Positions 32,490-37,828 of a DNA stretch of 64,000 nt are shown piece by piece; the first letter of the stretch is position 1; each line of letters begins with the position of its first letter. Source of the DNA: Salipiger abyssi (GTDB lineage Bacteria; Pseudomonadota; Alphaproteobacteria; Rhodobacterales; Rhodobacteraceae); assembly GCF_001975705.1 (NCBI RefSeq), contig NZ_CP015093.1, forward strand, positions 3,356,501 to 3,420,500, in the 5' to 3' direction. The notes beneath the pieces were generated by a model. The model had not been told where the DNA came from, searched no databases, and saw only the letters and a program-made list of their open reading frames with translations. Made by a program: the position numbers and the translations under genes.

Positions 32490-33272
32490 TCAGCAGGCCA
32501 GATCGACCCAGACCGGGACGTGGTCGGAGGGTTTTTCGCGGCCCCGGATCTCGCGGTCGATCTGCACATCGGTCATCAGGTCTGCGGCCTGCGGCGACAG
32601 CAGCACATGGTCGATGCGGATGCCATTGTTGCGCTGCCAGGCGCCTGCCTGGTAATCCCAGAACGAGTAGTGCCCGGGGCCGGGGTGGCGGGTCCGGAAC
32701 GCCTCGGTGAAGCCCAGGTTGAGGATCCGGCGGAAGGCGGCGCGGGTCTGCGGCAGGTAGAGCGCATCCTCTTCCCAGGCCTCGGGTTTCGCCGCGTCCT
32801 CTGCCTGCGGAATCACGTTGTAATCGCCGGCCATGAGAAACGGCATCTCCTCGGCCAGCAGGGCGCGGGCGCGGGCCTCCATGCGTTCCATCCAGGCGAG
32901 CTTGTAGTCGTATTTCGGCCCCGGCGCCGGGTTGCCGTTGGGCAGGTAAAGCCCGCAGAGCCGCAGCGCGTGGGTGTCGCCCACAACCGTCGCCTCGATC
33001 CAGCGCGCCTGCTCGTCCTCGTCATCGCCGGGCAGGCCGCGCGTGACGTCCTCCAGCGGCAGTTTCGACAGGATCGCGACGCCGTTGAAGCCTTTCTGAC
33101 CGTGGGTTTCGACCTGATAGCCGCGCTCTTCGAAATGCTCGCGGGGGAAGGCCTCGTCGACGGATTTGATCTCCTGGAGCAGCGCCACATCGGGCTGGGC
33201 CTCGTCGAGCCAGTCGCTCAGGGCCGCGATGCGTGCCTTGACGCCGTTGATGTTGAAGCTGGCGATCTTCAT
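32490..33272 (-). CDS. xth: Exodeoxyribonuclease III (AP endonuclease)
   Basis: Cuts DNA at abasic sites and trims 3' ends in base excision repair. The 260-residue protein has every motif of the ExoIII fold: FNINGVKARI (6-15), LLQEIK with metal-binding E34, GDYNVIP near 150, RIDHVLLS near 219 and SDHVPVWVDL at the C-terminus with the catalytic Asp-His pair. It is a single-gene unit upstream of bolA. Confidence 0.96.
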   Translation of the reverse strand: MKIASFNINGVKARIAALSDWLDEAQPDVALLQEIKSVDEAFPREHFEERGYQVETHGQKGFNGVAILSKLPLEDVTRGLPGDDEDEQARWIEATVVGDTHALRLCGLYLPNGNPAPGPKYDYKLAWMERMEARARALLAEEMPFLMAGDYNVIPQAEDAAKPEAWEEDALYLPQTRAAFRRILNLGFTEAFRTRHPGPGHYSFWDYQAGAWQRNNGIRIDHVLLSPQAADLMTDVQIDREIRGREKPSDHVPVWVDLAC

Positions 33273-33610
33273 TGGGCCCTCCGCTGTGTTGATCCAGCTA
33301 TCGCCCAGTCGCCCTTCAGGGGCAAGCCCGCAGCCCGTTTGACGGCGGCGATTCGAGCGAAAAACCCGGCGATTCGCAGGTTTTCAGCGGACGCAGAAAT
33401 TCATCCACAGAAAATATTTTCCTGTGGAGAAATCAGAATTTTCAACTTTTCGGGCCGGCTAGCGGCGGTCCTTCATGTGCATAAATCGTGTATTATTCAA
33501 CCTATGCAAGAAAGCATATTGCCAGAAACACGCATTGGCGGAAACCCTGAAACGGCCAAATGGCACGAACTTCAACGCCAAAATCGGCTTTTTCTCACAG
33601 GGGTTTCCAG
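33273..33610 (+). other. AT-richer upstream region of the repeat-protein gene
   Basis: 338 bases without a gene. The stretch 33380-33530 is clearly richer in A+T than the genome around it. It holds two direct copies of CGGCGATTCG (33346-33355 and 33367-33376), an inverted repeat at 33405-33427 and a TATTAT box at 33491-33496 as a possible -10 element. It probably is the control region and leader of the gene at 33611. Confidence 0.5.
33405..33427. promoter_or_regulatory. Inverted repeat upstream of repeat-protein gene
   Basis: CCACAG-AAAAT-ATTTT-C-CTGTGG: a near-perfect dyad of 11 bases per arm with one unpaired C, 184 bases before the ATG at 33611. It looks like a regulator site or a stem in a long leader; its protein partner is unknown. 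Confidence 0.4.
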
Positions 33611-34135
33611 ATGTCCGCTCAACTCAAGCATGCAATCACTGAAGAATCCGTTGACGCGCTCGGCGCGGATCTGTTCGGCGGCGACGGCTGCGCGATGTTC
33701 ACCTCGGGCGCCGCGCCCATGGGCAGCGAAACGATGACCGGCGACGCGCTGGAGATGTTCACCTCCGGTGCCGCTCCGGTGACGGGTTCCGCCGCGACCG
33801 GCGAGGCCACCGGTCTCTTCACCTCGGGCGCCGCGCCGATGGGCAGCGCCACCATGACCGGTGAGGCCGTCGCGCTCTTCACCTCCGGTGCCGCCCCGGC
33901 GCAGTCGGAAACCGCCAGCGGCGACGCGGTGGAGCTTTTCACGTCGGGTGCCGCACCGGTGACCTCCGAGGCGTCGCAGGGCGATGCGGTCGAGATGTTC
34001 ACCTCCGGCGCCGCACCGACCGCAAGCGACGCGATCCGCGGCGACGCCGTGGAAATGTTCACCTCGGGCGCCGCGCCCAAGGGCACCCGCGCCGCAGCGG
34101 GCGAGGCCACCGGCCTGTTCACCTCGGGCGCCTGA
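33611..34135 (+). CDS. Protein of exact 20-residue tandem repeats (FTSGAAP)
   Basis: A 174-residue protein of unknown function. Residues 1-28 form a leader with one cysteine (ending LFGGDGCA). Residues 29-168 are seven repeats of exactly 20 residues, each opening with Met or Leu then FTSGAAP and closing with a variable spacer such as xxSxxxxGDAVE. An eighth copy stops after FTSGA. There is no signal peptide or membrane segment. FTSGAAP is encoded with different synonymous codons in different copies, so the protein sequence rather than the DNA is conserved. A hairpin and two more genes follow. It resembles multi-core precursor peptides in layout, but no modifying enzyme is recognisable. It may belong to an uncharacterised Rhodobacterales DUF family. 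Confidence 0.75.
   Translation: MSAQLKHAITEESVDALGADLFGGDGCAMFTSGAAPMGSETMTGDALEMFTSGAAPVTGSAATGEATGLFTSGAAPMGSATMTGEAVALFTSGAAPAQSETASGDAVELFTSGAAPVTSEASQGDAVEMFTSGAAPTASDAIRGDAVEMFTSGAAPKGTRAAAGEATGLFTSGA
33695..34132 (+). repeat. 60-base coding tandem repeat array
   Basis: Seven full 60-base units begin at 33695, 33755, 33815, 33875, 33935, 33995 and 34055, with a partial eighth at 34115. The period is exact, with no insertion or deletion. The conserved part encodes (M/L)FTSGAAP. Confidence 0.9.
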
Positions 34136-34153
34136 TCGTCCGAAGTCTTTGCA

Positions 34154-34181
34154 GCGGGCGTCTTGGGGATGAGACGCCCGC
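34154..34181 (+). terminator. Hairpin between repeat-protein gene and next gene
   Basis: Perfect 10-base arms GCGGGCGTCT and AGACGCCCGC with an 8-base loop, 18 bases after the stop codon. No T run follows, so it may act as a partial terminator or RNA-stability element that lets the first gene be expressed more than the two downstream. Confidence 0.5.
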
Positions 34182-34206
34182 GCGCACCAGAAAGAAGAGG
34201 CCCGAC

Positions 34207-35268
34207 ATGACCAATGTGATCGCGCTCCGGCCCAAAGCCCGCATCGCCACGCCGGAGACCGGCGCGGCCGCGCTGCTGACCAGCTTTGCCACCTGCCGCC
34301 GGCGTCAGGAGGATGTGTTCTGGCTGAAGGAAAACGCTGAGCTTCTGAACATTCTCGAATGCACCGGCACCATGCTGCCGCGCGCCGCGCTGGAGGCGCT
34401 GGCGGGCTTTTACGAGACGGTCGGGAAGCGGCTGGCCTTTTTCCCGCAATATTATCGTTTCCTGCTGTCCATCACGCTGGATCTCGAGGATCTGGGGATG
34501 GAGGGCGACACCGGCGCGATGCTGGCCGACCGCGCGGCGCGCGAGGATTTCGCCGGCGCCGAGCTGTCGGACCTGCAACGCATGGAGGCGCGCCGGCTGC
34601 TGGCGCGGCGCGGCGTGGAGGGTCCGGAGGATGCAGGACTGACCGACCGGCTGCGCGCGTTTTGCGCCCGGTCGCAGACCTTTGCCTTGCCGAACAAGAA
34701 AGCCGCCTATGAGCTGACCCATATCGTTTTCTATCTCAGCGAATACGGACGGCGCGACCCCGAGCTGGGGGCGGAGGCGCTCACCAGCCTGCATTTTGCC
34801 GGCAACCTGGCATTTCTTGAGCAGAATTCCGATCTTCTGGCCGAAATCTGCATCGCGCTGCGCTATGCCGGCGCCGAGCCGCCGGCGCTCTGGACGCGCT
34901 GGCTGGCGCGCGAGACGCATCTGTTTGCCGTCGAGCAGGGCGAGGGGCTCTCGGTCGCCGACGACTACCACGATTTCCTCGTGTGCAACTGGCATGCGGC
35001 GGTGACGGGGGCCGAGCCCTTCCGCAAGCCGCTGGTGGCGGAGCGCATGCGCTTCACCCGCTCCGAACGTGTCGCGGCACCGCTGCGCGAGCTGTCGGAG
35101 GCGCTCTTTGCCGAAGGCGATGCGCGCCGTCCGGACTGGCCGGCGATGCGGGCACGGATGCAGGCGCGGCTGTCGCCGCAGACGCTCGATGTGGTCGATA
35201 CGCTGGCCGGGCAGTCGGCGCATTTCGATGCCTTCTTTGAGGGCTTCGCCCGCGCGGGGCAGGCATGA
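34207..35268 (+). CDS. Uncharacterised protein linked to the repeat-protein gene
   Basis: A 353-residue protein without signal peptide or membrane segments, predicted to be mostly helical. I do not recognise a catalytic motif. Notable segments are FATCRRRQEDVFWLKENAEL near residue 30, FYETVGKRLAFFPQYYRFLL near 62 and NKKAAYELTHIVFYLSEYG near 165, and the acid/aromatic-rich pattern is even along its length. It starts 71 bases after the repeat protein, with an AGAAGAGG ribosome site, and its stop overlaps the EamA start (ATGA). It may be one of the DUF families restricted to Rhodobacterales. A role in handling the repeat protein is suggested only by position. Confidence 0.6.
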   Translation: MTNVIALRPKARIATPETGAAALLTSFATCRRRQEDVFWLKENAELLNILECTGTMLPRAALEALAGFYETVGKRLAFFPQYYRFLLSITLDLEDLGMEGDTGAMLADRAAREDFAGAELSDLQRMEARRLLARRGVEGPEDAGLTDRLRAFCARSQTFALPNKKAAYELTHIVFYLSEYGRRDPELGAEALTSLHFAGNLAFLEQNSDLLAEICIALRYAGAEPPALWTRWLARETHLFAVEQGEGLSVADDYHDFLVCNWHAAVTGAEPFRKPLVAERMRFTRSERVAAPLRELSEALFAEGDARRPDWPAMRARMQARLSPQTLDVVDTLAGQSAHFDAFFEGFARAGQA

Positions 35269-36146
35269 GCGCCGCGCGCAGTGCGCTCGCGGGCGCCGGG
35301 CTGGTGGCGCTCTATACCGGCGCCATCGCGGCGGCGGACGGGATAACCAAGCTGATCGCGGGCGGCTACGCCGCGCCGCAGCTTTTTGCGCTCTCTTCGG
35401 GGCTCGTCATTCTGCTGTCGCTGGCCGCTGCGCGGCGCGGCGGGCATGGCGGGCTGCGCACGCGCTGCCGGGGTGTCATGGCACTGCGCGCCATGCTCAC
35501 GGTGCTGGCGGCCATTGGCTTCTTTCAGGCCTTCCGGCTGCTGCCCTTTGCCGATGTCTTCCTCTTCATCGCGCTGATGCCGCTGATCGCGGCGGCGCTT
35601 TCCGGCCCGGCCCTGGGTGAGCCGGTGCGCCCGGCGGTGTGGCTGGCGCTGAGCCTCGGCGCGGCGGGGGTGCTCTGCCTGATGCCGGCGGGGCGGCTGG
35701 CGGTCGATCCGGGCCATCTCTGGGCGCTTTTTGCGGCGCTGACGGGCACCGGCTCGATGGTGGCGGCACGCTATATCGCGCGGATCGAGCGGGTGCCGCT
35801 GGCGCAGGTTTTCTGGCCCAACCTCGCGCTGATGCTCACCATGGGCGTGGCGCTGCCCTTTGTCTGGCAGCCGATGGGGCTGGCGGATCTGGGCTGGGTC
35901 GCGGGCTACGCGCTCTTTCTATTTGCCGCGCGCTGGCTCTCGGTCGAGGCGCTGCGGCTGCTGCCGGCCTATGTGGCGACGCCGCTGATGAATCTGCAAT
36001 TCGTCTGGATGGTCGCCATCGGCTGGTGGGGCTTTGGCGAGCTGCCGGGCATGGGCACGATGCTGGGCGTGGCGCTGGTGGTGGGCTCCGGGCTCTGGCT
36101 GGTCGCCGACGAGGCGCTGCCCGCCCGCCGCGCGCTCCGCGCCTGA
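35265..36146 (+). CDS. EamA/DMT family transporter
   Basis: A 293-residue drug/metabolite-type transporter with ten predicted helices and two EamA halves. The first half contains ALRAMLTVLAAIGFFQAFRLLP and FADVFLFIALMPLIAAALSG, the second LLPAYVATPLMNLQFVWMVA. It overlaps the upstream gene by 4 bases, so the two are coupled. Export of a small molecule is the family role; the substrate is unknown. Confidence 0.85.
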   Translation: MSAARSALAGAGLVALYTGAIAAADGITKLIAGGYAAPQLFALSSGLVILLSLAAARRGGHGGLRTRCRGVMALRAMLTVLAAIGFFQAFRLLPFADVFLFIALMPLIAAALSGPALGEPVRPAVWLALSLGAAGVLCLMPAGRLAVDPGHLWALFAALTGTGSMVAARYIARIERVPLAQVFWPNLALMLTMGVALPFVWQPMGLADLGWVAGYALFLFAARWLSVEALRLLPAYVATPLMNLQFVWMVAIGWWGFGELPGMGTMLGVALVVGSGLWLVADEALPARRALRA

Positions 36147-36158
36147 TCCTGTCCCTCT

Positions 36159-36197
36159 GACACCGCCCCGGGGTCCGCGCGATCCCGGGGCGGTGTC
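36159..36197 (+). terminator. Strong hairpin after the EamA gene
   Basis: Perfect 14-base arms (36159-36172 and 36184-36197) with an 11-base loop and only TTG after it. It marks the end of the 33.6-36.1 kb unit and separates it from the Hsp70-like gene. Confidence 0.65.
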
Positions 36198-36256
36198 TTG
36201 CGCGCCCCGGCGCTTTGCGGTAGCGGCAGCACCTTCCCGCCGCAAAGGATACCGCC

Positions 36257-37498
36257 ATGCCCGTGTCCGCCACGCTTGCCGTCGATTTCGGAACCTCGAA
36301 TTCCGCCGCCGCGATGCTGGAGCAGGGCACGCTGCGGCGCATCGCGCTGGAGCCCGGGGCCGAGACCCTGCCCACCGCCGTGTTCTTTCCCGAGGAGGGC
36401 GGCGCCATGCGCATCGGCTCGGCGGCTGCCGAGGCGCTGATCGCGGGTGAGGACGGGCGCTATATGCGGGCGCTGAAAAGCGTGCTGGGCACGCCGCTCT
36501 TTCACGAGAAACGCCTGATCGCCAAGCGTCGCCGCACGCTGGCCGAGATCGTCACCGCCTTTCTGGTCGAGGTAAAGACCCGCGCCGAGGCGCAGACGGG
36601 CAGGGCGTTCGACCGGGTGCTCTCGGGCCGCCCGGTGCATTTCCACAGCTCCGACACCGCGCGCGACGCGGCGGCGCTGGCCGATCTGCGCGGCTGCTAC
36701 GAGGCGGCGGGGTTTGCGGAGGTGGAGTTCCTCTATGAACCCGAGGCCGCCGCGCGCTCCTGTCAGGAGGCAGACCGCCCCGGCGAGCTGGGGCTGGTGG
36801 TCGATATCGGCGGCGGCACGTCCGATTTCTCGGTGTTCCGCGCCGCGCCGGAGGGGATCGAGATCCTCGCCTCGCATGGCATAAGGCTGGGGGGCACCGA
36901 TTTCGACCGCTCGGTCTCGCTGAGCCACGCCATGCCGCTGCTGGGGCTCGGCTCGCAGTTGCGCCGACCGCTGGGCGAGGGGCTGCTGCCGGTGCCCAAT
37001 GCGCTCTACGTGGATCTGGCGACCTGGGCGATGATCCCGTTTCTCTACACCGCCGACACCCTGCGCGCCGCCCGCGACATGAAGCGCCATGCGGTGGAGC
37101 CGGAGAAATTCGCCCGCCTTGTCAGCGTGCTGGAGGACGAGCTCGGCCACGAGCTGGCCTTTGCCGTGGAGCGCGGCAAGATCGCCGCCAATAGCGGCAC
37201 GCCGGGTGCCGCCATCGAGATGGGGGTGATCGAGCGCGGGCTTGCGGCGCCGCTCACAGCCGGGGCGCTCGCCGCCGCGCTGACGGAGGCGGGCGAGCAG
37301 TTGCGCCACGCCATGTACGAGACGCTGCACCGGGCGCAGGTCACGCCGATGCAGATCGGTGCCGTGGTGCTGGTCGGCGGGTCGAGCCTCATGCGGCTGG
37401 TGGCCGACGAGGCGCGCGCGGTCTGCCCCGGCGCGCGGCTGCGCCGGTCGGAGGCGTTCACGGCGGTGATCGACGGTCTGGCGCTGGCCACCGCCTGA
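36257..37498 (+). CDS. Hsp70-family protein, YegD-like
   Basis: A 413-residue actin-fold ATPase of the Hsp70 superfamily. It has the phosphate-1 motif AVDFGTSNSAAAM at residues 8-20, LYEPEAAARS near 163, the phosphate-2 motif VVDIGGGTSDFSVF near 182 and LVGGSSLMRLVADE near 375. It lacks the substrate-binding domain and lid of DnaK, as does E. coli YegD. No co-chaperone gene is adjacent. Cytoplasmic; function unknown. Confidence 0.85.
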   Translation: MPVSATLAVDFGTSNSAAAMLEQGTLRRIALEPGAETLPTAVFFPEEGGAMRIGSAAAEALIAGEDGRYMRALKSVLGTPLFHEKRLIAKRRRTLAEIVTAFLVEVKTRAEAQTGRAFDRVLSGRPVHFHSSDTARDAAALADLRGCYEAAGFAEVEFLYEPEAAARSCQEADRPGELGLVVDIGGGTSDFSVFRAAPEGIEILASHGIRLGGTDFDRSVSLSHAMPLLGLGSQLRRPLGEGLLPVPNALYVDLATWAMIPFLYTADTLRAARDMKRHAVEPEKFARLVSVLEDELGHELAFAVERGKIAANSGTPGAAIEMGVIERGLAAPLTAGALAAALTEAGEQLRHAMYETLHRAQVTPMQIGAVVLVGGSSLMRLVADEARAVCPGARLRRSEAFTAVIDGLALATA

Positions 37499-37504
37499 GC
37501 GTGC

Positions 37505-37828
37505 TCACATGGCGAAGCTGGTGCCGCAGCCGCAGGAGCTGGTGGCGTTGGGATTCTCGATCACGAACCGCGCGCCGATCAGCTCTTCGGTGAAGTCGAT
37601 CGTGGCATCGGCCAGGAAGGGCAGCGAGATCTGATCGACGACCACGCGTTCGCCGCTGCCTTCGAGGACGAGATCGTCCTCGGCGGGATCGTCGAGCGTG
37701 ATTTCATACTGGAATCCCGAGCAGCCGCCACCCTCGACCGCAACGCGCAGGGCCTTGCCCTGGGCATTGGCGCCGATCTCGTTGAGGCGGGCAAAGGCAC
37801 GCTCGGTGACTTTCGGAGGCAGGTTCAT
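37505..37828 (-). CDS. erpA: Iron-sulfur insertion protein ErpA-like
   Basis: A 107-residue A-type carrier that delivers Fe-S clusters to target enzymes. The three cluster-binding cysteines are C36 (GGGCSGFQY) and C99/C101 (SCGCGTSF). It is the second such carrier in the window (the other is at 4646) and more like ErpA/IscA2 because of its GGGCSGFQYEI segment. It is divergent from dgt with 109 bases between. Confidence 0.9.
   Translation of the reverse strand: MNLPPKVTERAFARLNEIGANAQGKALRVAVEGGGCSGFQYEITLDDPAEDDLVLEGSGERVVVDQISLPFLADATIDFTEELIGARFVIENPNATSSCGCGTSFAM

Follow-up and report, generated by a model that had tools for sequence, protein, structure and literature searches.

A uniform pentapeptide repeat protein and its DUF6902 partner in Salipiger abyssi: a probable multi-core peptide precursor with a candidate epimerase

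Why would a bacterium encode a protein that spells one five-residue word eight times, at a strictly regular spacing and with codons that change from copy to copy? The question arises from a repeat gene of Salipiger abyssi (contig NZ_CP015093.1), located at positions 33611 to 34135 of a stretch of 64,000 nucleotides (the window, i.e., the whole stretch that was analysed), and from the gene of a DUF6902 protein that follows it. Comparison with related loci leads us to conclude that the repeat protein is probably a multi-core precursor of the RiPP type (ribosomally synthesised and post-translationally modified peptide) with DUF6902 as its maturase, and we hold, with moderate confidence, that DUF6902 modifies the cores of this precursor by epimerisation. 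Neither multi-core precursors nor peptide epimerases are new as kinds; a uniform pentapeptide array that is switched as a block between species and tied to DUF6902 was absent from the open-access literature searched, outside which most subscription papers lie, and this literature yielded nothing on the repeat protein or on DUF6902.

Results

The repeat gene and its partner comprise the following features, all on the forward strand:

33611..34135, forward: repeat gene, multi-core precursor-like; 174 residues plus TGA stop codon, with a 29-residue leader and 8 cores (supported by homologues)
33611..33697, forward: leader MSAQLKHAITEESVDALGADLFGGDGCAM; start with A3 and K6 common to relatives
33680..34132, forward: array of 8 units G-[DE]-x3-[ML]-FTSGA(-AP-spacer), period 60 bases
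34118..34132, forward: last core FTSGA, which is the C-terminus; same end point in relatives (see below)
34207..35268, forward: DUF6902 protein of 353 residues, proposed maturase and probably a peptide epimerase (matches to PF21843 and PF21836)
Y168, H172, D209, E213 and H255 of the DUF6902 protein: conserved residues (alignment)

The array is unbroken, as a sequence-only reading of this DNA had described it: the eight FTSGA cores follow each other at exactly 20 residues, and AP stands after seven of them. Its Tandem Repeats Finder (TRF) score is 195, and that of the runner-up array in the window is 77. The same reading had noted that core codons differ between copies, which holds, with synonymous differences in 37 of 112 codon pairs and non-synonymous differences in 0. 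Its account of the leader needs correction: 29 residues, not 28, precede the first F, and the final stretch from G24, taken for a degenerate core (GGDGCAM), is the G-x5 segment of unit 1, of the kind that precedes the cores. The start at 33611 is backed by the leaders of relatives, which begin with MSAQLK or MTAQLK. A search of the genome found the repeat gene in single copy, the second row being a weak antisense match within the same stretch. The protein has no family in Pfam or PADLOC, one sub-threshold row in NCBIfam, and no match in the phage collection or the plasmid collection; direct reading of its sequence revealed no dibasic pairs, and Rfam returned no RNA family over 33200-36300. A long antisense open reading frame (ORF; 33619-35223) was set aside, because it is the forward frame that is under protein-level constraint. 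Upstream, at 33540-33608, GGAAACCC is able to pair with GGGTTTCC directly 5' of the start codon of the repeat gene (z -1.67, a weak signal), and this pairing may hide the region in which the ribosome would bind.

The pairing of the two genes was studied in loci (genome and locus labels are ours) from 54 of the 55 DUF6902 carriers in the host's family (G139 was left out) and from the best 80 of 337 DUF6902-like places, i.e., matches among GTDB species genomes. For one locus (L086) tblastn gave no placement and its ORFs were read instead; the other 133 yielded 116 distinct DUF6902 proteins, some of them very close relatives. A repeat gene lies just upstream in 116 of 117 distinct DUF6902 loci, mostly at a distance of 50-110 nucleotides (71 bases in the window). 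Among 198 genomes of the family, DUF6902 was found in 55 and the repeat profile in 52, and since all 52 fall among the 55 carriers, the repeat occurs in 0 of the 143 genomes without DUF6902. Three carriers had no match to the repeat profile. G099 has a divergent MMCCS array, visible by eye and missed by the profile; in the contig of G139 the DUF6902 match runs from base 6 onwards; and G039 carries, at the usual site, a degenerate DUF6902 remnant (L086, 7863-8996) without a repeat gene. At L086 about 150 nucleotides separate the start of the exonuclease gene from the remnant, and on the other side 14 nucleotides separate the remnant from the end of the Fe-S gene, so these flanking genes leave no room for a repeat gene or an EamA gene. 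The remnant has lost Y168, H172, Y176, D209, E213 and H255, each of which is retained in 115 or 116 of 116 DUF6902 rows; L086, which lacks both a repeat gene and the conserved enzyme residues, serves as a natural control. A wider sample covered 385 genomes of the class, of which 4, the window's own included, had DUF6902 over the cut-off; all 4 belong to the same family. The gene pair thus shows the arrangement by which RiPP systems are recognised, a precursor-like protein with a leader and cores beside a dedicated partner enzyme, which would modify these cores.

Across relatives the unit follows the consensus G-[DE]-x-[VT]-x-[ML]-F-x-S-x-x-x-P, which is followed by a variable spacer. Units are spaced by 20 (455 cases) or 21 residues (247 cases), seldom by 8, 13, 17, 19 or 22, and their number per protein ranges from 2 to 20 in the 116 distinct loci (in L085 one of the three units counted is a chance match far upstream, leaving 2 real units). 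L054 and L130 contain masked bases within the array, and several arrays end at a contig edge. The last copy in the window protein had been regarded as truncated; a stop exactly at core residue 5 is, however, the usual C-terminus of these proteins, occurring in 75 of the 89 without Trp (W) in the core. Cores were picked with the pattern [FYMLI]x[STCNA]x[SALCM], which had itself been read off the loci, and in 16 loci by manual assignment, so that the residues at core positions 3 and 5 were in part fixed by the way of picking; a list of the commonest 5-mers and a separate count anchored outside the core served as checks free of the pattern. In L042, L157, L165, L167 and other FTSGL loci, short spacings (including 8 and 13) alternate and the cores are closely paired (FTSGLVQMFTSGLAP).

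Within a protein the core hardly varies. When G(-6) served as one anchor, P(+6) or the ORF end as the other, and the core itself as none, the majority tetrapeptide F+1..F+4 of the respective protein was present in 713 of 734 units (96 proteins), and part of the non-majority units are chance anchors outside the array. Over the same four positions 38-54% of codon pairs were synonymously different with hardly any amino-acid difference, and at spacer positions the amino acid differed in 49-64% of unit pairs; because the units for this codon comparison had been preselected at no more than one core mismatch, the anchor-only figure is the fairer measure of uniformity. Since synonymous codons diverge, core amino acids stay and spacers vary, the uniform core is, on this codon evidence, held by selection and not by recent duplication alone, in agreement with what the sequence-only reading had proposed for the window protein.

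Between species the core word, as far as the loci compared indicate, changes as a block. The relatives use 36 pentapeptides (e.g., FTSGA, FTSGS, FSSGS, FTSWS, FTSGL, FTTSC, FTSCA, FITSC and FTNWC), and at least 52 core changes were mapped on a tree of 115 rows of the DUF6902 enzyme, a quick build with many weak branches. L038 and L158 share three units with identical spacers that all differ by T versus S in the core, with differing codons; a search for further same-spacer cases gave three pairs only, which are less clean. The sequence-only reading had named a lack of conservation of the FTSGAAP units between species as a refuting outcome, and this check gave an unexpected result: the word FTSGAAP varies between species, but the architecture of the unit persists, filled in other species with other, mostly uniform words. 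Block-wise switching of repeats with diverse codons is unusual in itself and calls for a recognition partner.

The window enzyme matches the DUF6902 profile (PF21843) at E 1e-161 with 537.9 bits (Pfam cut-off 27) and the DUF6895 profile (PF21836) at E 4e-21 with 76 bits (cut-off 23.8), the latter over residues 29-228 only; by these scores it is better described by DUF6902 than by DUF6895. The two families match each other in hhalign (probability 89, E 2e-6) and have Y168, H172, D209 and E213 in common, as well as H255 going by motif order, and DUF6902 is, on these profile comparisons, a distant relative of DUF6895. The importance of this kinship lies in a 2026 title in the reference list of PMC13352647, which names a DUF6895 member as a lasso-peptide epimerase; in the open-access literature DUF6895 was found in PMC13352647 only, within that reference list, the part of the article on which we draw. 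The predicted model of DUF6902 is nearly all-alpha. Nothing was found among PDB sequences at E <= 1 or in a BFVD fold search at E <= 0.001, and the plasmid collection gave no match; no metallophosphatase was named among the matches listed, an absence that does not exclude one.

DUF6895 genes in other lineages also come after small, often repeat-bearing peptide genes. Outside the family, five over-cut-off DUF6895 matches were fetched (the sub-threshold G882 and G892 were left out), and in the six DUF6895-type loci that were read, one of which, L211, is no more than a sub-threshold DUF6902 match, the enzyme lies downstream of a small peptide gene. In L211 the ORF 5' of the enzyme overlaps an ORF on the other strand, which a simple gene picker prefers. 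Peptide genes stand directly 5' of DUF6895-type enzymes at L209 8907-9338, L210 7425-7910, L215 4849-5259, L208 7593-7850 and L195 2343-2579 (the same place as L211). They encode an aromatic-rich C-terminal motif, present in two copies in L209, L210 and L215, and most have a leader-like AGIIxxxxTLxxL stretch; those of L208-L211 had no Pfam or NCBIfam family over the cut-off. At L214 (2539-5250), the DUF6895 domain is part of a 903-residue protein whose C-terminal part looks, by eye, kinase/phosphotransferase-like.

The surroundings of the gene pair contain further features:

32490..33272, reverse: Exo_endo_phos nuclease, flank, outside the system; relative upstream in 124 of 124 eligible loci
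33401..33484: three DnaA-box-like 9-mers, at 33401 (forward) and at 33423 and 33476 (reverse), each 1 mismatch from TTATCCACA
35265..36146, forward: EamA-family transporter, proposed exporter (start overlaps the DUF6902 stop; family search)
37505..37828, reverse: Fe-S_biosyn protein, flank, outside the system; relative downstream in 109 of 130 eligible loci

We take the nuclease gene to be xthA and the Fe-S gene to be erpA. The EamA and DUF6902 genes overlap by four bases, and an EamA relative lies 3' of DUF6902 in 102 of 130 eligible loci. An Hsp70-like gene at 36257-37498 was dropped from the system, a relative being present in just 3 of 130 loci. Of 30 genomes without DUF6902, 29 had a readable flank. 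In 21 of these the exonuclease and Fe-S genes are no more than about 1.4 kb apart, a spacing that fits an empty site, and in the remaining 8 the Fe-S gene was not found within the short flank.

Upstream of the repeat gene, the DnaA-box consensus TTATCCACA (as given in the accessible part of PMC11317965) occurs exactly in 73 of 107 loci and with at most one mismatch in 84 of 107, against a background of 0.0007 exact boxes per 300 nucleotides in the same loci. As a control, the 300 nucleotides 5' of the repeat gene were compared with 500 nucleotides 5' of the exonuclease gene in empty sites: among 29 of these, an exact box was found in none and a one-mismatch box in one. The layout is conserved as well, with an inverted pair 13 nucleotides apart (29 cases) and an additional box in the same direction 52-55 (37 cases) or 75-77 nucleotides (23 cases) further on. 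Escherichia coli DnaA, according to the same part of PMC11317965, prefers box pairs 2-3 bp apart, unlike the 13-bp inverted spacing seen here. Boxes of the form TTATCCACA 5' of an operon are what is expected of DnaA-regulated promoters, and we regard them as putative sites; they raise a testable link between peptide production and replication.

Discussion

The interpretation of the repeat protein as a multi-core precursor matured by DUF6902 draws on the architecture of the units, the pairing with DUF6902, uniformity within proteins together with switching between species, the usual end point, and the distant kinship with DUF6895. From these we infer a sequence of recognition, modification by epimerisation, cleavage, export and signalling. 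Each unit of 20-21 residues would contain a recognition segment of its own, G-[DE]-x-[VT]-x-[ML], and after it a core of five residues, for which F-x-S-x-x is typical. DUF6902 would bind the recognition segment and alter the core of every unit alike; most likely it would act as an L-to-D epimerase and invert a single residue at its alpha-carbon. A protease, none of which was recognised in the cassette, would then free peptides of 5-7 residues whose last residue is core residue 5 or lies shortly beyond it, and in loci with an EamA transporter this protein could export them. Because the copies are near-identical within a species and different between species, the product most likely works through a matching target, e.g., as a species-specific signal. 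A bolder version, in which each species uses one block-switched D-residue word of a species-specific signal alphabet, with the operon under DnaA control and the signal tied to the cell cycle, is speculative, and we think it unlikely.

Several observations weigh against this interpretation and have to be considered together with the alternatives. Among the seven window proteins scanned with Pfam (the repeat protein and six around it), there was no protease and no RiPP recognition domain, and, of the parts of a lasso-peptide system, neither a lasso cyclase nor a leader peptidase. No EamA relative (i.e., no tblastn match to the window's EamA in the available locus DNA) was present in 28 of 113 distinct eligible loci, including all 15 Marivita-clade rows. 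The 27 proteins with Trp in the core extend at least 3 residues past core residue 5, so one cut site cannot suit all proteins, and true mixing of cores occurs in L060, L065, L072, L073, L074 and L152. The epimerase label derives from one paper title and a distant match to the family which it names. The repeat protein may also be a multi-core precursor whose cores DUF6902 cleaves, crosslinks, lipidates or otherwise modifies, or only recognises; we consider this a lesser possibility, rather unlikely but worth keeping in mind.

The repeat protein might instead form a beta-solenoid or an amyloid-like stack, with DUF6902 as an assembly partner. Uniform cores would then be ladders of identical side chains, which would account for the uniformity inside one protein, and the AlphaFold model of the repeat protein does place the cores as regularly stacked strands. 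This model is weak, however (mean pLDDT, the predicted local distance difference test, 55; no residue >=70), some proteins have just 2 cores, and spacings of 8, 13, 17, 19, 20, 21 and 22 fit poorly with a regular stack, which also explains neither why these proteins usually end at core residue 5 nor the link between DUF6895 and peptide genes; we regard a stack as quite improbable. Accordingly, the scaffold suggested in the sequence-only reading has lost ground despite the stacked strands in the model, and another of its suggestions, a multi-core precursor, is strongly supported by the DUF6902 partner, whose relatives a paper title connects with RiPP epimerisation. Cores could also become uniform if a disordered protein that yields no peptide underwent tandem duplication and gene conversion, and identical neighbouring units do exist in some arrays (units 3-5 of L038). 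Conversion would homogenise codons and amino acids alike, though, and the contrast between synonymous differences in the cores and amino-acid differences in the spacers largely refutes this explanation, which we hold to be very improbable indeed.

If the precursor interpretation is true, it adds a widespread RiPP-type class in marine bacteria (337 GTDB places; 55 of 198 genomes of the family) and offers a testable role for DUF6902, an uncharacterised Pfam family, and by extension for a second such family, DUF6895 in its stand-alone form. The approximately 36 natural core variants would, in addition, reveal what the enzyme and the target accept.

Among known systems, the fungal repeat proteins processed by Kex2, including yeast alpha-factor and the ustiloxin precursors, are comparable in that a tandem precursor carries many copies of one short peptide that is highly diverse between species, and 22% occur with genes of modifying DUF proteins (accessible part of PMC7329392). 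They are, however, eukaryotic, secreted and cut by Kex2, whereas the repeat protein of the window is bacterial and has no dibasic pair by direct reading, and its enzyme is unrelated. MslH, the MS-271 lasso-peptide epimerase, uses two His/Asp pairs for acid/base epimerisation of the C-terminal alpha-carbon of a peptide, as far as the available text of PMC10406935 describes it; the reaction type proposed for DUF6902, which has invariant His and Asp residues, is the same. The fold of MslH is calcineurin-like and its substrate is the C-terminal Trp of a single precursor, whereas DUF6902 has a nearly all-alpha model and would act on many cores. With the DUF6895 lasso-peptide epimerase, to the extent that its title describes it, DUF6902 shares a match to the DUF6895 profile and its Y, H, D, E and H; it differs in the arrays of 2-20 mostly uniform cores and in the leader, and it constitutes its own Pfam family, which is over the cut-off in one bacterial family only among the 385 genomes of the class.
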